A stretch of 32,463 nucleotides of DNA from Clostridia bacterium. GTDB taxonomy: Bacteria; Bacillota; Clostridia; Oscillospirales; RGIG8002. The stretch is taken from assembly GCA_017453725.1 (NCBI GenBank), contig JAFTEJ010000078.1, positions 1 to 32,463 of the forward strand, written 5' to 3'. The translations under genes and the position numbers were made by a program. The notes under the pieces were generated by a model that had not been told where the DNA came from, did not search any database, and saw only the letters and a program-made list of their open reading frames with translations. This document shows, piece after piece, positions 11,687 through 20,796 of the stretch (position 1 is the first letter of the stretch; the number at the start of each line of letters is the position of its first letter).

Positions 11687-13000
11687 CTATTCCTTTACCA
11701 CGAGGATACGTTTCATATTGAGTCCTTCCGGAAGCGCCGCGATATACTCGCCGGGAAGCACAGACGGAAGCCCCGGAGGATAAACTCCGACGCATTCGGC
11801 GGCGATCCTGCCGACGCTTTCTTCGGCGGGAACACACTCGCACCGCGCGCGGAACGCCTCCGCTATGCTCATAGCCCTGCGGAGTATTATATCACGCCGC
11901 TCCGGCTTTGGCAAGAGTTGTTTCTTCTTTTCCGCCGTGACGAATACGCCCGTCAGCCTCGAAAGCTCCTCCTCGGTGTTCATCGGGGAGAACATGAGCA
12001 GAGCGCCGTTTTCGTCGGTGAACTCCGGCACGCAGCCGAAGCGGGCGAGCCTCGCGGCTGTTTCCGCGCCAGAAAGCCCCGTTTCGCCGCCGGTCACGTA
12101 AATCCGGCAGGGGTCTCCGCGAAGCACCCGGAAGCCGTAAGCCTCGATGTCGTTTTTGAGCCGTCCGAGCCGCTCCGCGAGCTTATTATACGCTTTTTCG
12201 CCCTCGTCCCTCGCCCAGCCGAGCGCCGCGGCGATCGACAGCATTATCGGATACGACGGACTGGACGAGCAGAAGCGCTTCATCAGCTTTTTCGCAGACG
12301 CGGCGAGCCGAGCGTCCGCGAAGTGGAGCAGCGCCGAGCCGGTCATCGCGGGCAGGGTTTTGTGTATCGAATCGCAGACGGCGTCCGCGCCGCATTCGAG
12401 CGGATGCTTCAAACCTTCGATAAAGCGCAGGTGTGAGCCGTGGGAGTTATCGACAAGCAGAAGCCTTTTATGTCTGCGGCATATCTCCGCAAAAGCGGAG
12501 ACGTCCGCGATATATCCGTAGTAATCGACCGACGTCAGAATCAGCGCGGAGATCGCGGGGTCGGCGAGGAACGCCGCCTCGACGGCTTCCGCGGGAACGA
12601 CGCCCGCCGGCGTTTCGTCGCTCGGCGCCGCGGGAAGCACGACAGCTTCCGCGCCGCAGAGTCCGACGGCGTTGAAGACGGAATAGTGGCTGTTTCTCGG
12701 GATCAGCAGCTTTCCCCTCGCCGCGGCGAGGGCGGTCATCGCCTGTATGCAGGAGGTGGCTCCGAACGGCGAAATCAGCGTCGCGCCGCTGCCGAAAAGA
12801 CGCGAAGCCTCCGCTTCAAGCTGCGCTATGGCGCCGTCCGCCTCGAAAAGCTCATCCGAAAACGGAAGCTCGGTCACGTCGAGCCCGTAAAGCTCCGGCG
12901 GCAGCACGCCGTCCGGCTTTCTGCCCTTGTGACCGGGCATATGAAACGAAGCGCAAACGCGTTCCGCGTGCTCCTTCAGCGCGCGTTCAAGCTCATACAT
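11687..13000 (-). CDS. Orn/Lys/Arg decarboxylase-like PLP enzyme (YaaO-type)
   Basis: A 437-residue fold-type I PLP enzyme. It opens with the family's FHMPGHKGRKPDG and shows DVTELPFSDELFEADGAI, ISPFGATSCIQAM, the pocket DNSHGSHLRF, and the PLP lysine in SIHKTLPAMTGSALLH. The C-terminal half ends with YPPGLPSVLPGEYI, typical of the group. It would decarboxylate arginine, lysine or ornithine; the specificity cannot be read. Members are commonly about 470-490 residues, so this one is slightly short. It overlaps the racemase-like gene by 8 bp. In B. subtilis yaaO sits upstream of tmk-yaaQ-yaaR-holB, but here holB follows directly. Confidence 0.9.
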   Translation of the reverse strand: MYELERALKEHAERVCASFHMPGHKGRKPDGVLPPELYGLDVTELPFSDELFEADGAIAQLEAEASRLFGSGATLISPFGATSCIQAMTALAAARGKLLIPRNSHYSVFNAVGLCGAEAVVLPAAPSDETPAGVVPAEAVEAAFLADPAISALILTSVDYYGYIADVSAFAEICRRHKRLLLVDNSHGSHLRFIEGLKHPLECGADAVCDSIHKTLPAMTGSALLHFADARLAASAKKLMKRFCSSSPSYPIMLSIAAALGWARDEGEKAYNKLAERLGRLKNDIEAYGFRVLRGDPCRIYVTGGETGLSGAETAARLARFGCVPEFTDENGALLMFSPMNTEEELSRLTGVFVTAEKKKQLLPKPERRDIILRRAMSIAEAFRARCECVPAEESVGRIAAECVGVYPPGLPSVLPGEYIAALPEGLNMKRILVVKE

Positions 13001-14087
13001 ATTTTCTCTCCACGCCCGCGGGAACGAACAGCGGGTTTGCGTTAAAGCGCACTACGTCGCCGACGGCGCATTCGACGTCCGTTACGTCGAGCGCGAGGCA
13101 ATGCTGCGATATTTTGCCGACGACGGGGACCTTTTTGCCGTTCACCCAACCGTATATCCCGTCGTCCTCAAACGCGTTGAAAAGCCCTTTTATCGCGTCC
13201 TTCAGCTTTGAGATACGCTTTCTGCCGTAAGGCAGTCTGCCCTCCGCGAGCCCGTCCGATATGCCGATATGCAGCAGCGCGAGCTTCGTTTTGCGCTTTG
13301 TCTTGAACTGGCGGCTGTAGCCGACGTACTGGCCTCTTTCGATCAGCTTGACCTCCGCTACGTCGCATTCGAGGCGGCCGATTTTAAACAGTCCCGCGTC
13401 GAAGCCGGCAGGCATCCTGCCGAGCAGACCGGAGCCGATGCGAACCGCGTCGTAGCGCGTTTCGGGATACTTGACGGCGGCGCAGGAGTTGGCGGCGTGG
13501 ACGAGCAGCTTCGAGCCGAGCTGCTTGGAAAAGAACCTGACCGCGCTCTCGAAGCGCTCGTTCTGCATCTCGGTGAAAAGCGGACGCGCGGCGTGGCTCT
13601 CGGTAAACTGCGTGAAAATGCCGGTCACTGTCACATAGCGCAGCGCGGGGATCAGGTTCGCGGCGCGCTCGTATTCAAACTCGCGCAAGCCGGAGTGGCT
13701 GAAGCCGGTGTCTATCAGCAGGTGCACTTTAACCTTTTTGCCGGCGCGGTCGCCCGCCTCGCTGATGAGCTTCAGCGACTGCATACTGCCGGCGGCGAGG
13801 GTCGCGCCCGTCGCGACGGCGCGTTCGATATCGCCGCGCATATCGCTCGACGAAAGCAGGATAAGCTCCGCCGCGCAGCCGTAGTTCGAAAGCAGCTCCG
13901 CTTCGCCCACGCGGCTGACGGCGATGCGCTTCGCTCCGAGCTCGCTGAATATACCCGCGGCCTGGAGCAGTCCGAGCCCGTAGGCGTTCGACTTGAGCAC
14001 GGGTATGACCTCGACGCCGCACATTTCGCGCAGCTTCAGGTAGTTTCTGATAAGGGCGTCCTTCTCAACGACTAATCTCGCTCCCAT
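12993..14087 (-). CDS. Divergent alanine-racemase-like PLP protein
   Basis: A 364-residue member of the fold-type III alanine racemase family. The PLP lysine (VLKSNAYGLG), a conserved ANS, the phosphate-site VRIGSGLLG and the catalytic tyrosine segment (VGYSRQF) are present. Several usual active-site residues differ: the DTGMxRxG arginine is His (DTGFSHSG), GIFTHF reads GIFTQF, GYADG reads GISDG, and the CMDQ-like motif reads QHCL. The C-terminus ends soon after VGDVVRF, without the usual YE(I/L) segment. It may be a racemase for another amino acid or have altered activity. The start at 14087 follows AAGGAG. It lies between the FemX and decarboxylase-like genes, which suggests a wall or amino-acid role. 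Confidence 0.85.
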   Translation of the reverse strand: MGARLVVEKDALIRNYLKLREMCGVEVIPVLKSNAYGLGLLQAAGIFSELGAKRIAVSRVGEAELLSNYGCAAELILLSSSDMRGDIERAVATGATLAAGSMQSLKLISEAGDRAGKKVKVHLLIDTGFSHSGLREFEYERAANLIPALRYVTVTGIFTQFTESHAARPLFTEMQNERFESAVRFFSKQLGSKLLVHAANSCAAVKYPETRYDAVRIGSGLLGRMPAGFDAGLFKIGRLECDVAEVKLIERGQYVGYSRQFKTKRKTKLALLHIGISDGLAEGRLPYGRKRISKLKDAIKGLFNAFEDDGIYGWVNGKKVPVVGKISQHCLALDVTDVECAVGDVVRFNANPLFVPAGVERKYV

Positions 14088-14107
14088 ATTTCTCCTTCCG
14101 GGCGGGA

Positions 14108-15235
14108 TCACTCCGCCTTTTCAACTCCGCCGTCCGGCTTCTCCTCCTTGTGCTGAGGCGCGGGGACGCGGTGGCGTTTATCCTTTGTCTTAGCGAGGAA
14201 GCGGCGCTTACGCATATGCTTGAAGGCGCGCGTGGCAAACTCGGTGAACGCGTAGCCGAAGCGTCTGAACACGGCGTCGATCTCGCCGACGAACTCGACC
14301 AGCTCGCCGTTGAAGCCGCGCTTGAATCTGTAAAGCCCGTAAAGCGGGTTGCTCTCGTCCATATCGCCGGATACGCCGCGGAAATCATATACCGAAACGC
14401 CGCTCTCTATCGCCCAGCGGATCATCTCCCACTGCAGCAGATAGTTGGGCATTCTGTTGCGCTCCCTGTTCGAGGAAGCGCCGTAGAGATACCATACCTT
14501 GTCGGCGTATCTTATCGCGAGCGTGCCGGCGATCATTTCGCCGTCGTAGTAGGCGGCGTAAAGGCGGGCGTCCTCGCCGAGCGATCTCAGCAGGCGCTCG
14601 AAATACTCCTTCGAGCGGCATATGAATCCGTCGCGTTCGCCGGTGACCTTCATCAGCGCGTGGAACTGCGCGATCGCCTCCGAATCGCTGTTTACGATAC
14701 GGGTTTCGACGCCGTTCTTTATCGCGACCCGGACGTTATAGCGCGTCTTTGATGTGAAGTTCGCCATCACCTCTTCTTCCGTTTTGCCCTTTATATCCAT
14801 ACGGTAGACGAAGCGCGGCTGGGTGGTCTCGAAATTCTTTCCGCCCTTGACCTTCAGCTTCATCGCGGCGAGCGCCTTCTCAAACGGCTCAAAGCCGGCG
14901 CGTATATCAGGATCCATCCGCAGGCAGACGCTGCGGTGTTTCTTCGCGATGCGGCGGACGCCGTTGACTATATCGGTGAACGCGGCGGAATCGTCTTCGT
15001 CAAAAATCGGGCCGCGGGGCGCGTACATAAGCGTATACGGAGTCATAGGTATCTTGCGGACAAGGACGGATATTCCTCCGCGCACGCTTCCGTCTCCGTT
15101 GCGTGTGACGACGACCTCGCGTTTCCAGTCGCTTTTCAGCGCCGCCCACTCCGCGGACTGCATAAAATGTCCGCGCGGGTGGTTCCTGTTGAAGCGCTCG
15201 AATTCCGCGTAGTTCTCCGGTCTGAGTAATTCCAT
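14108..15235 (-). CDS. FemAB/FemX-family peptidoglycan branching transferase
   Basis: A 375-residue aminoacyl-tRNA-dependent transferase of the FemABX family, with two GNAT-like halves. The family segments are clear: HFMQSAEWAALKSDW at the N-terminus, MYAPRGPIFDE, TSKTRYNVRVAIKNGVE in the middle, and YLLQWEMIRWAIESGVSVYDFRGVSGD followed by NPLYGLYRFKRGFNGELVEFVGEID. The enzyme adds one or more amino acids to the stem-peptide lysine of lipid II or immature peptidoglycan, at the membrane's cytoplasmic face. The basic tail (KHMRKRRFLAKTKDKRHR) may help membrane or RNA contact. The long helical arm of some FemA proteins is missing, as in FemX. The racemase-like gene follows after 20 bp. AAGGAG precedes the start. 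Confidence 0.94.
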   Translation of the reverse strand: MELLRPENYAEFERFNRNHPRGHFMQSAEWAALKSDWKREVVVTRNGDGSVRGGISVLVRKIPMTPYTLMYAPRGPIFDEDDSAAFTDIVNGVRRIAKKHRSVCLRMDPDIRAGFEPFEKALAAMKLKVKGGKNFETTQPRFVYRMDIKGKTEEEVMANFTSKTRYNVRVAIKNGVETRIVNSDSEAIAQFHALMKVTGERDGFICRSKEYFERLLRSLGEDARLYAAYYDGEMIAGTLAIRYADKVWYLYGASSNRERNRMPNYLLQWEMIRWAIESGVSVYDFRGVSGDMDESNPLYGLYRFKRGFNGELVEFVGEIDAVFRRFGYAFTEFATRAFKHMRKRRFLAKTKDKRHRVPAPQHKEEKPDGGVEKAE

Positions 15236-15278: not shown

Positions 15279-18200
15279 TCAGGCGTCCAGCCCGACGGCC
15301 TTCCGGAGTATCCGGAGCGCGTCCGCGACGGTTATTTCGCCGTCGCCGTCCATGTCGCCCGTCGCAATGTCGAGCGTATCGGCGGTAACGAGCCCCGCCG
15401 CTATGCGAAGCGCCTTCAGCGCGTCGGCGGCGGTCACGTTCCCGTCGTTATTCATATCGCAGCGTGTGTATTCGCGCACGGTTATCATATTAGAAACGCT
15501 CGTCACGTTGCCGTCCGAGTCGACCGCGGAGTAGGTCACAGCGTATACGCCGTATTTGTCAAGCGCGGCCGTACCGCCGGAAAAGACGTCGATACCGTCC
15601 GGGTCGATGACTTCGACGGTAACGGCGAGCTCGCCGTCGGGGTTATCCTGCGCGGTAGCGGCGGGAAGCGTTATGACGCTGCCGATAAGCGCTTTTTTCG
15701 GCAGACTGCCGTTCACGGTAAGTTCCGGCGGTATCGCCGCGATAAGCGCGGCAAGCGCCGCCTCGGCGGCTTCCAGCTCCGCAAGCCGCGTTACGAAGCG
15801 CTCGCGAAGATCCGGGTCGAGCGCGTCGCAGGCTCCGCGGACGGCGGAAATCGCGGCGGCGTCCGCCAGCGTTATATTTTCCGCAGCGGGAAGCGCGGCT
15901 ATACGCGCGTCCACGCGCTCGAAGCTCGCGGTCGAGAAAAGGTCGAGCGAGGCCTCGCCGTAGTTCAGGCGCAGCTTGCAGCCGTCTACGCTCGCCGTCG
16001 CCATTCCGCTCGCCGCGGAGGCGAGGTTGACGTAAGCGGTTCCGGCACCGGTGAAGTAATCGACTCCGCCGAGGGTTACGGTCTCCGCCCCCGTTTCGCA
16101 GGAAACGGCGGCTCCTCCGGAGCTGAACACCGCGTCGACGCCGTACTGCGCGGCTACGGCGGAAATCTGCGCCGCAAGCGGCGAAGCCGACGCGTCGCCT
16201 GTAATCGGCGCGTTCAGCAGCAGGAAGTTCCAGTCGGAGCCGCTCGCGCCGAGCGTCTTCGTCAGCCAGCCGAGCTGCTTTGTATTCAGCGTTCCGTCGG
16301 CGGCGAGATCGTTGGAATTGAGCACCGCGAAGAGTGCGTTTTTGTATACGAACGAGTAGTAAACGCCGGTCGCGTGCCCGGCTCCAGACTGCTCGGAAAT
16401 GTTATACTTCGTCCACCAGACGTTGCTGTCGGACGGGCCCGCGGTCGGGACGGCGCGGACGTTATCGAAAACGCCGGACATCACCGAGAAGTAATCCTTC
16501 CAAGCCGCTTCTCCCGCCGCCTCCCCGCCGGTCGTCAGCAGGAAATCGGGCGCGGCGCTCCAGTACGCGGCGTTCCACGCGGAGCGCACCTCGCCCGCGC
16601 TTCCGCCGGGGGCGACCGCCGCGAAGGCGAAGCTCTCGTCCGCGGACGCGGTCTCGACCACGCAGGGACGCGACCATACGTCGCGGTTCTTGTCGCCGTA
16701 GCGCAGCCAGTACTTCGCGCCCGCCTTCAGCCCCGTGATGCGCAGCTTGTGGACGTACTTGCCGGTCTCGTCGCTGTAGGTCGTGCTGCCGGTGTAATTC
16801 TTCGTTTCGTTGGAATTGAAATCCGGGTAGGCGCTGCCGTAAGGCAGAAGCTGGACGTGCGTTTTCATATCCTCCGCCGTCTGCCACGTCACCGAAACGC
16901 GGGTCGCGCTGTCGCCGCCGAAGTTCGCGTTGAACTGCTCGAGCAGCGCCGAGTTATCGACGGAAACGTCGAACGAACGAGTAGGAGAATAGGAGTTGTA
17001 AAGGTCGGCGGTGCCGACGATATACCAACCGAGAGCGGAGGTAACGTTGCCCGTGTAAACGACCGCGGCTGTGCTGTTTTTCAGCCCCGTCTGCGTTTCG
17101 CCTATCTGCGAATTGAAGCGCACGCTCGGCACGAAGGAAGTCGTCTTGAGATACTTCACATTCGAATCCGAAATCACGCGGAAGCGCAGCTTCATCTCGC
17201 CTCCGGAGGCGTAATCGGCGATATTGAGTCCGTTTTTGCCGAGATTGAAGCTCACCTCGCCGGTAAAGCTCGTCTTTGCCGCGAAAGGCTCCCATTCGCC
17301 GGCGATACCGTTGTATACGCTCATCTCGATCCTGTTGCCGATAGCGGTCTCGCCGGTATAGTCGGCGCAGACCTTCCCGGTCTTTCCGGAAACGTCGATA
17401 CTGAAGGTCTGATAAAGCTCGCCGCCGGTTTCGGTCTCGGTCAGAAGGCCGCCGTCGACCTGAGCTCCCATAGTGCGCTCGCCGGCGGGAACAGCCTCTG
17501 CGATAGAGCCGCTCGTCACGTTCTCGCTCGCGGACGCTTTCAGTATCTCCGCGAGGCAGAACTTCGCGCTGTAGCGCGTGAACGAACCGGTCAGCTTCGC
17601 GGAAACCCGGTAGCCGCCGTCGACCTGAGAGACTTTCATATCCGAATACGCGGGCGCGGGCTTGCGAACCTCAAAGCGCAGGCTGGTCGTCGCGCTGTTG
17701 CCGGCGTTATCGGTGAGCGTATAGCTCATATTGTGGTAGCCGCCGGTGATGAAATCGTATTCCACCTCGTAAGGCGGGGTAATGCCGCGCCCGTCGAGCA
17801 CGGCGGTGACGGAGGCGACTCCGCAGCCGTCGTCGGTCGGGTTGAAGGTTATATCAAAGGTCTGGCCGTCGCTCAGAACGATGATGTCGTCGGGATAGAC
17901 CTCCATATCGTAGGCGGTGTATCTGCGGCCGAGCGCGTCGATCGCCTCCCAGCTTCTGATATACGGGGCGGTGTTGTCGAAAAGCACCGTCTTTTCCGCC
18001 GCCACAGCGCCGCCGACCGAGAAGACGAGAGTCTTGTTCCCGTCCGCGTATGCGGTCGTATCGATGACGAAGGAGCGGCGGTAGCGCCCGCCCGTGTGCG
18101 ATACCGTCCCGCCGGGGACGTCCGTTCCGTCGAGCGTCAGCGTCATTTCGCTGCCCGAGACCGAGAAGGTCTCGACCGTGAGCGTGCCGGCGGCGTAGCC

Positions 18201-18323
18201 GGTCTCGGCTATGTTCCAGCCGTTATCCTCGCCGGCCGCGGACGCGGGCAGCGCGAAGAGTCCCGCGCAGAGCAGCGCGGACAGGAGCAGTGCCGTTGTT
18301 TTTTTGAAGAAAGCGTTTTTCAT
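15279..18323 (-). CDS. Secreted purple-acid-phosphatase-like protein with dockerin end; likely pseudoenzyme
   Basis: A 1014-residue exported protein. Residues 1-29 form a signal peptide ending ASA. Residues about 30-225 hold Ig-like beta repeats. A large beta-rich middle region follows, then a purple-acid-phosphatase N-terminal Fn3 domain (about 462-560: TRVSVTWQTAEDMKTHVQLLPYG). A metallophosphoesterase-like domain spans about 565-790. It keeps the outline (APDFLLTTGGE, VYYSFVYKNALFAVLNSNDL, QLGWLTKTL) but lacks the metal ligands: the GDxQ site reads APGG, GDxxD reads GGEAAG, GNHD reads AGPSD, the LxH site reads LLNAP, and GHxH reads SGGAAV. An Ig-like domain (about 865-950) and a two-repeat dockerin end (DMNNDGNVTAADAL, DMDGDGEITVADAL) follow. 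It starts 6 bp after the autolysin gene. Confidence 0.88.
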   Translation of the reverse strand: MKNAFFKKTTALLLSALLCAGLFALPASAAGEDNGWNIAETGYAAGTLTVETFSVSGSEMTLTLDGTDVPGGTVSHTGGRYRRSFVIDTTAYADGNKTLVFSVGGAVAAEKTVLFDNTAPYIRSWEAIDALGRRYTAYDMEVYPDDIIVLSDGQTFDITFNPTDDGCGVASVTAVLDGRGITPPYEVEYDFITGGYHNMSYTLTDNAGNSATTSLRFEVRKPAPAYSDMKVSQVDGGYRVSAKLTGSFTRYSAKFCLAEILKASASENVTSGSIAEAVPAGERTMGAQVDGGLLTETETGGELYQTFSIDVSGKTGKVCADYTGETAIGNRIEMSVYNGIAGEWEPFAAKTSFTGEVSFNLGKNGLNIADYASGGEMKLRFRVISDSNVKYLKTTSFVPSVRFNSQIGETQTGLKNSTAAVVYTGNVTSALGWYIVGTADLYNSYSPTRSFDVSVDNSALLEQFNANFGGDSATRVSVTWQTAEDMKTHVQLLPYGSAYPDFNSNETKNYTGSTTYSDETGKYVHKLRITGLKAGAKYWLRYGDKNRDVWSRPCVVETASADESFAFAAVAPGGSAGEVRSAWNAAYWSAAPDFLLTTGGEAAGEAAWKDYFSVMSGVFDNVRAVPTAGPSDSNVWWTKYNISEQSGAGHATGVYYSFVYKNALFAVLNSNDLAADGTLNTKQLGWLTKTLGASGSDWNFLLLNAPITGDASASPLAAQISAVAAQYGVDAVFSSGGAAVSCETGAETVTLGGVDYFTGAGTAYVNLASAASGMATASVDGCKLRLNYGEASLDLFSTASFERVDARIAALPAAENITLADAAAISAVRGACDALDPDLRERFVTRLAELEAAEAALAALIAAIPPELTVNGSLPKKALIGSVITLPAATAQDNPDGELAVTVEVIDPDGIDVFSGGTAALDKYGVYAVTYSAVDSDGNVTSVSNMITVREYTRCDMNNDGNVTAADALKALRIAAGLVTADTLDIATGDMDGDGEITVADALRILRKAVGLDA

Positions 18324-18329
18324 AACATA

Positions 18330-20747
18330 TTACCTGAAATACTCGACGACCGCGCTCGCTATCGCGCCCGCGAGCTTGTCGGTGTTACCCGCCGCGGAAA
18401 GCCACGCGGCGTCGTTTTTGTTTGACAGGAATCCGCATTCGAGAAGTATCGACATAAAGTCGTGATTGCGGTAAACGAATACGTTTTTATATTTGCCGCC
18501 GCGGTTCTTCATACCGCTGACGTTGTGCATCGCGTCGCTGACCTTCTGCGCCAGCGCCTGATTGAAGCCGTAAAAATACAAAGCCTCCGTGCCGTTGCCG
18601 GACGTATCTTCATAATAGTTGTGGTGGACGCTGATAAGCAGATCCGGGTCGCAGGCGGCGATGAGCTCAAGCCGGTGAACGCGTTCGGTGTCTTTGTTCA
18701 CGCGCACCCCGTCGGAGAAATAGAACTGTTCCGTGCGCGTAACGTAAACCGTCGCGCCGAGCGCCTCAAGCTTCGTGCGGAGCGCAAGGGCGACCTTGAC
18801 GTTTTCCTCCGCCTCGGTCAGGCCGTTGCCGCTCGCGCCGGTGTCGTAGCCGCCGTGACCGGCGTCAAGACAGATAACGGCTCCGTCGAGGCGGCCGTTG
18901 GAGGCGTCGATCGGATTATGGAAGCGCAGCACAAGGTTGCCGTTTTTGTCATAGTAGGAATTATATCCGCAGAACATCCCCTTGCGCTTCAGCGTGAAGA
19001 CGTATTTGACCGAGCCGTCCGCCGCCGTGACGGAAGCGGAGGAGAAAAGCGGATTCGCGTCGGCGGTGACGGCGGGAGTTCCCGCCGCGTCGGTGAAGGT
19101 AACGCTGACGGAGGTGAAGCTCGAACAGGTCGCGTCCGTGGCGTCCGTGCTGCCGGAAAACAGCCCGTGCATAACCACCTTGAAGGGGGTCTTCTGCGTC
19201 GCCGCGACGGTGAAATAGGTGTATTTCCCATCGGTTTTGAGTTCGGCGGCGAGCAGGTCGTTGGTCAGTATGGCGACGCCGTTTTTCACTTCGGAATCCT
19301 TCTGATAAACGCGGTGTCCGCCGCGCAGGTTGAAGTATTTGAGCGTGCTGTCGCTCGAGCATACCGATTCGCCGGTTATATAATCCCTCGTGCCCGCCGG
19401 CAGCCAGAAATACTGCGGAAGGCTCGTGTCGCTGTCGTTCGGGGTAAGGCGGAAAGTCTCGTTTCTCGAATTTTTCAGAACCGCCGCTCTGCCGGTCGGA
19501 TATTCAAGCTGCGGAACGCTCTCGATCCGCGCCGCTTCGCGCAGGACGGTCAGCGCGTCCGAAACGGCGACTTTTCCGTCGCGGTCGACGTCCGAAAGGA
19601 TGAACTGCGCTCCGGACACTTCCGACAGCCGCGCCGCGCCGCGCAGCACGTTCAGGGCGTCGGCGACGGTGATCTCGCCATCGCGGTCATAGTCGCCCCA
19701 GCGTTCGGGCACGGCGGCGACGGAACGCGTTTCACGCGCCATGCACTCCGTGCAGACGCGGGTCTCCTCGCCCGCCGCTGTGTGCGTCGCGGGAACGGTC
19801 ACGCGCCATTCGGTCCAGAAATGCTCCGAGGTCGGGGGTATCTCCTGCGTTTCGCGTTCTCCGCAGGTCCGGCAGACGCGGTATTTGCTCCCCGGAGTGA
19901 ATTCCCCGGCGGGAACGGTGACCGTCCATCCGCTCCAGTCGTGCCCCGTCGCGGGCAGGATCTCGCGATGAGTTTCGCCGCAGTCCTCGGCGTGCGCGTT
20001 CAGCGCAAGCGCCTTTGTGTAGGCGGCGATTATCGAGCCGCCGTAATCGGGGTCGCTCGTCCAGTCGTTCGTGCCGAGCTCCTTCCACGACGGCTTGCTG
20101 CCGTGGACCATATAGTAAAAGCGCGGATCGACGACGACCTCGCCCTCCGGGAGCGCGTCGGCGGTCGCGTAAGCGTATATGTGCTGGATATGCGCGGTAA
20201 CGCCCAGCTCGGCGGTCTCAAAACGGCAGAGGCTGGCTTCGTCACCGAGCTTGCCGGTGATGCCGAGGCCGCAGAAGTTGTTATCCGTCGGCACGGCGTA
20301 AAGTCCCTCCGGGCGCGGCTCGTAAACTCGCACCCAGCCGCCTTCGCCGTCCGGCTCGAGGTAGCTCTGCGGACGATTGAATTTGAACCAGCCGGTCTCC
20401 TTTATCGCCTGCAGATACGCGAGGTCGCCGCGCAGACCGTATTTCGCACCGATGGTCAGATAGTAGTTTATCAGCTCCTCGATAGTGCAGGTCAGGCGCA
20501 TATTCGGAATCTGCTTTTCAGAATAGGCGTAGAGATCCTCCGCCGTCAGGACGCTTTTGCCGAGTATCATAAGCGGATCCTCGACGACGTAGCCGCCGAC
20601 GCAGACGTAGTCAACGTAGCCGTCCTTGGTGCAGGTCGGCTCGACGCGCCCCGTTTCGGCGTAGTTATGGTACGCCGACGCGGTCGCCGCAGGTATCATA
20701 GCCGCGGCAAACGCGCATATCAGTATGAACGATACAAGCTTTTTCAT
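18330..20747 (-). CDS. Secreted bifunctional autolysin: glucosaminidase-like, internal dockerin, amidase_3
   Basis: An 805-residue exported cell-wall hydrolase. A signal peptide (about 1-25) is followed by a TCTKDGYVDYVC segment and a glucosaminidase-type domain (about 75-250: LAYLQAIKETGWFKF, NNFCGLGITG, DPDYGGSIIAAY). Two TGHDWSGWTVTVPAG...CRTCGERE-like repeats with CxxC pairs follow (about 265-345), then an internal two-repeat dockerin (about 350-412: DYDRDGEITVADAL, DVDRDGKVAVSDAL). The C-terminus (about 620-805) is an N-acetylmuramoyl-L-alanine amidase of the amidase_3 family. Its zinc and catalytic residues are present: LDAGHGGYDTGASG, EAEENVK, SVHHNYY and LLECGFLSN. It should cut both glycan and stem peptide. 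A GGGAGG site precedes the start, and manA lies 49 bp upstream. Confidence 0.93.
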   Translation of the reverse strand: MKKLVSFILICAFAAAMIPAATASAYHNYAETGRVEPTCTKDGYVDYVCVGGYVVEDPLMILGKSVLTAEDLYAYSEKQIPNMRLTCTIEELINYYLTIGAKYGLRGDLAYLQAIKETGWFKFNRPQSYLEPDGEGGWVRVYEPRPEGLYAVPTDNNFCGLGITGKLGDEASLCRFETAELGVTAHIQHIYAYATADALPEGEVVVDPRFYYMVHGSKPSWKELGTNDWTSDPDYGGSIIAAYTKALALNAHAEDCGETHREILPATGHDWSGWTVTVPAGEFTPGSKYRVCRTCGERETQEIPPTSEHFWTEWRVTVPATHTAAGEETRVCTECMARETRSVAAVPERWGDYDRDGEITVADALNVLRGAARLSEVSGAQFILSDVDRDGKVAVSDALTVLREAARIESVPQLEYPTGRAAVLKNSRNETFRLTPNDSDTSLPQYFWLPAGTRDYITGESVCSSDSTLKYFNLRGGHRVYQKDSEVKNGVAILTNDLLAAELKTDGKYTYFTVAATQKTPFKVVMHGLFSGSTDATDATCSSFTSVSVTFTDAAGTPAVTADANPLFSSASVTAADGSVKYVFTLKRKGMFCGYNSYYDKNGNLVLRFHNPIDASNGRLDGAVICLDAGHGGYDTGASGNGLTEAEENVKVALALRTKLEALGATVYVTRTEQFYFSDGVRVNKDTERVHRLELIAACDPDLLISVHHNYYEDTSGNGTEALYFYGFNQALAQKVSDAMHNVSGMKNRGGKYKNVFVYRNHDFMSILLECGFLSNKNDAAWLSAAGNTDKLAGAIASAVVEYFR

Positions 20748-20796
20748 AGCGCCTCCCTTTGCTTTCGGGTATCCTGACGGATAGCCGGCGTTGCTG

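Follow-up and report, generated by a model that had tools for sequence, protein, structure and literature searches.

Vps29 and the small subunits of DNA polymerases possess inactive calcineurin-like (metallophosphoesterase) folds that serve as protein-binding scaffolds; these proteins are intracellular, do not belong to the purple acid phosphatases (PAPs) and carry no dockerin. The plant two-domain PAPs of red kidney bean (1KBP/2QFP), sweet potato (1XZW) and wheat (phytase 6GIZ), which were the top Foldseek matches of our weak structure models, consist of a Fn3-like N-terminal domain followed by a metallophosphatase core. It is well documented that pseudoenzymes can act as scaffolds, allosteric regulators or competitors (PMC10211241). 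The pseudophosphatases among them, such as STYX and MTMR13, belong to eukaryotic signalling and mostly to the Cys-based fold; they have a phosphatase fold without catalytic motifs, are kept by selection and are expected to bind (PMC10211241).

The window, the whole stretch of 32,463 nucleotides analysed here, comes from a rumen-type clostridial bacterium and encodes a dockerin-bearing PAP homolog, here called pseudo-PAP. Similar to the plant PAPs, pseudo-PAP has a Fn3-like domain before the metallophosphatase core; in contrast to them, it lacks the metal ligands, misses active-site loops, and carries extra surface domains and a dockerin. It shares with STYX and MTMR13 a phosphatase domain without catalytic motifs, the retention by selection and the expected binding, and differs in being a bacterial, predicted secreted protein with a probable dimetal PAP fold. 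Within the genus, other dockerin-PAPs (on contigs C144 and C27, with orthologs L045-L048) present the same architecture of unnamed N-terminal module, PAP N-terminal domain, PAP core and dockerin. These proteins keep the motifs GDPQ, GDES or GDET, GNHD, HQG and GHDH together with the active-site loops, whereas pseudo-PAP has lost the motifs and several of the loops in part or entirely.

The literature search found no relevant paper on dockerin-PAPs, on a dockerin-bearing pseudo-PAP or on a calcineurin-like pseudophosphatase. As far as this literature shows, pseudoenzymes are known as a kind, and the dockerin-bearing, secreted bacterial form of a dimetal PAP is new. While the best-characterised pseudoenzymes come from eukaryotic signalling, pseudo-PAP would represent a secreted bacterial case with a loss that covers the whole site and deletes loops. 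Together with its intact paralogs in the genus, it offers a clean before-and-after pair for the use of a dimetal phosphatase scaffold without the chemistry.

Domain organisation and gene neighbourhood

The pseudo-PAP gene starts with ATG and, according to the ORF list and its translation, is unbroken (Table 1), in agreement with the preliminary description of a frame intact over 3 kb. The same description regarded the Fn3, Ig and dockerin domains as intact; the Fn3-like and dockerin domains exceed their Pfam cut-offs, and the Ig-like regions were matched below cut-off, including matches to Pfam Big_7 and HYR in the N-terminal region. Residues 38-388 also match dockerin proteins that the source genome encodes on its contigs C14 and C25. 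The unnamed module was recognised from tblastn matches starting at query residues 12-14 in C144 and C27, and spanning query residues 12-140 in C25. Both calcium-loop sequences of the dockerin, DMNNDGNVTAAD and DMDGDGEITVAD, were read from the translation. The N-terminal modules of pseudo-PAP are also present in two dockerin proteins of about 1000 aa (L004:721-3972 and L052:175-3003), which have no recognised catalytic domain. Long antisense frames opposite the dockerin genes (window positions 16374-18425 and 18462-20777, plus strand) were attributed to GC-rich codon usage and not regarded as genes.

Table 1. Positions of pseudo-PAP, its parts and its neighbours in the window
Feature	Residues	Positions	Strand	Basis or remark
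Upstream neighbour, glucosaminidase-like + internal dockerin-like + Amidase_3 protein		18330..20747	minus	6 bp before the pseudo-PAP gene (gap measured in the window)
Pseudo-PAP, whole gene		15279..18323	minus	Predicted secreted dockerin-bearing pseudo-purple-acid-phosphatase, 1014 aa; intact ORF; orthologs in 3/3 other family genomes
Sec signal peptide (predicted), MKNAFFKKTTALLLSALLCAGLFALPASAA	1-30	18234..18323	minus	By eye from the translation
N-terminal Ig-like/OmpL47-type region	31-225	17649..18233	minus	NCBIfam NF047446, 37.3 bits, cut-off 40
Unnamed module	242-455	16959..17600	minus	Common to intact dockerin-PAP paralogs, partly to C25
PAP N-terminal (Fn3-like) domain	462-556	16656..16940	minus	PF16656, E=3.7e-12, 47.1 bits, cut-off 30
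Ligandless PAP core	565-820	15864..16631	minus	hhalign to canonical PAPs; ligand table
Former motif 1 (D ligand), FAFAAVAPGGS	565-575	16599..16631	minus	Alignments
Former GD motif 2, now LLTTGGEAAGEAAWKDYFS	595-613	16485..16541	minus	D replaced by G, in two orthologs by S
Former GNHD motif 3 and following segment	622-658	16350..16460	minus	GNHD to GPSD; alignments
Former His motif 4, now NFLLLNAPITGD	699-710	16194..16229	minus	H to N or gap; alignments
Former GHxH motif 5, DAVFSSGGAAVSCETG	730-745	16089..16136	minus	GHDH loop missing
C-terminal bacterial surface Ig-like domain	869-949	15477..15719	minus	PF16403, 19.4 bits, cut-off 27 (sub-threshold)
Dockerin type I	956-1005	15309..15458	minus	PF00404, 25.5 bits, E=1.5e-5, above cut-off
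Downstream neighbour, FemAB/FemX-like peptidoglycan aminoacyltransferase		14108..15235	minus	43 bp past pseudo-PAP; conserved neighbour
Alanine racemase-like gene		12993..14111	minus	Member of old femX-alr-(OKR_DC)-holB-PSP1 operon

The gene upstream of pseudo-PAP encodes a protein with a glucosaminidase-like N-terminus, an internal dockerin-like repeat just under the Pfam cut-off, and Amidase_3 at the C-terminus. This three-part architecture of a cell-wall enzyme is unusual. Downstream, the order is FemX-like, alanine racemase, OKR decarboxylase-like, holB and PSP1. The gene order is kept in two of the related genomes (G001 and G003), both flanks are visible in the third (G002), and the amidase and pseudo-PAP genes are adjacent in all four species, including G002. 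Ten femX-alr loci taken from further genomes in the order, one of them on a short contig, had holB and PSP1 mostly close by, and neither the amidase nor the PAP was found at them. Their absence there suggests that the pair was added, at the level of this genus, to an old operon of cell-wall and housekeeping genes.

Purple acid phosphatase core and former metal site

A profile of the four ligandless sequences aligned with eleven canonical PAPs at an hhalign probability of 100% (E=1e-51). The core also aligns with the intact paralogs across about 430-480 residues at 29-33% identity (tblastn E=6e-39 for C144). By these alignments, the core is certainly a metallophosphatase core of common descent with canonical PAPs. 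The Pfam search gave no match of PF00149 (Metallophos) in pseudo-PAP at E<=10, and a search of its own genome with PF00149 matched 12 other places, the pseudo-PAP ORF not among them. Pseudo-PAP is homologous to the purple acid phosphatases, yet judged by its motifs it is no enzyme of that class.

Two AlphaFold models built from few-sequence alignments had a mean pLDDT of 44.6 and 49.7. The best PDB matches of both models in Foldseek were purple acid phosphatases (E=8e-7 and 1e-5), with TM-scores near 0.3 that reflect the poor quality of the models and are too low for a superposition of the metal site. Searches of viral contigs to deepen the alignment returned three distant homologs or none.

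In alignments with the intact paralogs and with canonical PAPs, none of the canonical metal ligands and catalytic His is left in pseudo-PAP. The first Asp corresponds to P572 or a gap, the second Asp to G600, Asn and His of GNH to P630 and S631, and the fourth-motif His to N704 or a gap. Compared by motif with the paralogs, GDPQ is replaced by APGG, GDES by GGEA, and GNHD by GPSD. The preliminary description had listed all metal motifs that it could align as substituted (APGG, GGEAAG, AGPSD, LLNAP and SGGAAV), and this list holds except for the last entry, since the GHxH motif lies in an absent loop of about 8-13 residues and was deleted rather than substituted residue by residue. In addition, the loop after motif 1 is about 16-18 residues shorter than in the in-genus paralogs, which also have about 40 residues late in the core that pseudo-PAP lacks.

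The composition of the core differs from that of the intact paralogs. One His is present in the 270-residue core, versus 9-11 in the paralogs, and Asp plus Glu amount to 24-32 versus 49-55. Ala, Gly and Ser together make up 97-110 of 270 residues, versus 75-84 of 355-383.

Orthologs, origin and selection

The sampled genomes of the family are four, namely the source and G001, G002 and G003, and represent one genus here. Pseudo-PAP orthologs with 68-79% identity to the window copy and kept gene order were present in all three other genomes (3/3), with identical losses of ligands and loops. The copy of G002 is split across two contigs, the second of which holds the intact Ig and dockerin end. 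Agreement of four genomes rules out an assembly error, an isolated mutation or chance.

Homologs were searched in 394 genomes of the order and 391 of the class. The same ligand loss, for which the preliminary description had proposed to look among homologs, was found in all four family genomes, while about 50 other PAP homologs across order and class retain the metal-site motifs in every part that the match covers, apart from a few homologs with a single residue changed in GNH or GHxH. The scan of the GTDB genome collection gave as sole further record a contig of the water-buffalo rumen MAG RGIG8183, which corresponds to G002.

Single-residue variants were seen at class level. Six homologs (L091, L092, L094, L096, L097 and L099) have GNK[DE] in place of GNH[DE], and in three (L093, L100 and L101) the His of GNH[DE] is Tyr, giving G[NS]YH; nearly all their remaining metal-site motifs are kept. 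These His to Lys or Tyr replacements may be independent changes of the catalytic chemistry. A further PAP homolog, L113:1312-2325, shows PGDHD for GNH[DE] and GGDTH for GHDH, and possibly has a variant site.

In the maximum-likelihood tree, the four ligandless proteins form one clade (100/100) that adjoins the genus's own intact dockerin-PAPs (99/98), and the ligandless stem is long (1.05 versus 0.65). This position beside the intact paralogs places the loss after the duplication and before the split of the four species. Codon models gave an omega of 0.128 in the dead core, versus 0.058 in the corresponding core region from four intact paralogs, and omega=1 was rejected for the dead core (lnL -2478.5 vs -2342.6; 2dlnL=272); thus, the constraint is real, at about half the strength of that on the enzyme. 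Pairwise dN/dS of the core was 0.18-0.30, similar to the remaining domains. Purifying selection across the relatives (core omega 0.13), four full-length orthologs with the same losses, and the duplication in the tree bear out the earlier proposal of a kept pseudoenzyme rather than decay.

The stretches APGGS, at former motif 1, and VWWTKYN are invariant in the core of the four orthologs. A hand-picked test had indicated special conservation of the old active-site surface (71% versus 44% invariant, p=5e-5), which was lost with preset columns. With columns preset by distance from the ligand positions, conservation was not significant at three widths (best 65% versus 50%, p=0.07). Since near-site columns are not significantly more conserved, a binding role is not claimed for the old pocket itself.

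Possible roles and the cohesin-dockerin setting

All metal-binding residues are lost, yet selection keeps the domain, so that pseudo-PAP very probably has a binding or structural function and is no enzyme. As a whole, a retained pseudophosphatase with a binding or structural role at the surface is the best explanation, and we regard it as reasonably probable. A gene in slow decay, its frame open by chance, would agree with the weaker constraint (omega roughly double the value in the intact paralogs), but is scarcely credible in view of the full-length frame and intact dockerin in four species and of the rejected omega=1; for this genus, the orthologs and codon models refute it. Quite improbable is an enzyme with a rebuilt non-canonical site of migrated residues, catalysing another reaction with or without metal. 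Migrated catalytic residues are reported in some pseudoenzymes (PMC10211241), and the orthologs conserve polar residues, for example in VWWTKYN.SEQ.GAGHA.G.YYSF and CETG.ET; however, the small number of His and acidic residues speaks against a relocated metal site, and loops around the old site are missing. The weak structure models favour neither side.

The PAP core could also be passive, a spacer or structural filler that binds no ligand within the multidomain surface protein. The ligand substitutions to mostly small residues, the enrichment in Ala, Gly and Ser, and the non-significant conservation near the site are consistent with this; nevertheless, a large domain at omega 0.13 with invariant stretches exceeds the needs of a spacer, and we consider it unlikely. 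A specific version of the retained pseudophosphatase, in which it acts as regulator or docking partner that places or restrains the adjacent amidase/glucosaminidase on peptidoglycan, appears somewhat less doubtful, though still tentative. Both genes bear dockerins, lie directly before femX-alr, stay adjacent in all four species, and were not found at the ten outgroup loci. However, the link is one of adjacency, for which shared regulation or a shared cohesin would suffice, and the outgroup set is small.

Under the preferred reading of a retained pseudophosphatase, a dockerin-bearing PAP would have been duplicated in the ancestor of the genus, and one copy would have lost all canonical metal ligands along with the catalytic His and several loops of the active site. 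The stripped copy may then have been fixed upstream of femX along with the dockerin-bearing peptidoglycan amidase. Once exported, its dockerin would be captured by cohesins, some of them membrane-anchored, and the stripped core with the Ig and Fn3 domains would form a surface binding or structural module without canonical dimetal phosphatase chemistry. The most likely setting would be beside the cell wall and the co-encoded amidase. The signal peptide, the dockerin and the cohesins with apparent membrane anchors are in keeping with this proposed role in a surface assembly.

Cohesins (PF00963 over cut-off) are encoded in all four genomes. A short protein with a single cohesin is present in all four species (L033:1279-2304, L119:964-2145, L120:1363-2310 and L121:1009-2364), and ends in a hydrophobic segment followed by a basic, Lys-rich tail. 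It is likely membrane-anchored by this C-terminal end, and capture of the pseudo-PAP dockerin by it is plausible from the sequences. The 1.64-Mb source genome contains about 70 dockerin-like matches, whose carriers are leucine-rich repeat, transglutaminase, tyrosine-phosphatase and unknown-domain proteins. Dockerins on LRR_5, transglutaminase-like and tyrosine-phosphatase-like proteins were observed, for example, at L007, L010, L013, L014 and L020. With such carriers, the cohesin-dockerin system does not resemble a cellulosome purely for fibre degradation, and the findings suggest that such assemblies in this gut lineage hold non-enzymatic parts and cell-wall enzymes besides fibre-degrading enzymes. 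A more far-reaching proposal, that the demetallated PAP is a dedicated non-catalytic partner, together with the amidase, in a cohesin-dockerin system for the bacterium's own cell wall and not for plant-fibre digestion, is speculative and seems unlikely.

A further PAP homolog, the 942-aa ORF L056 on contig C26, is an intact PAP without dockerin and possesses repeated C-terminal segments resembling SLH anchoring repeats, which would give PAPs another means of surface attachment.
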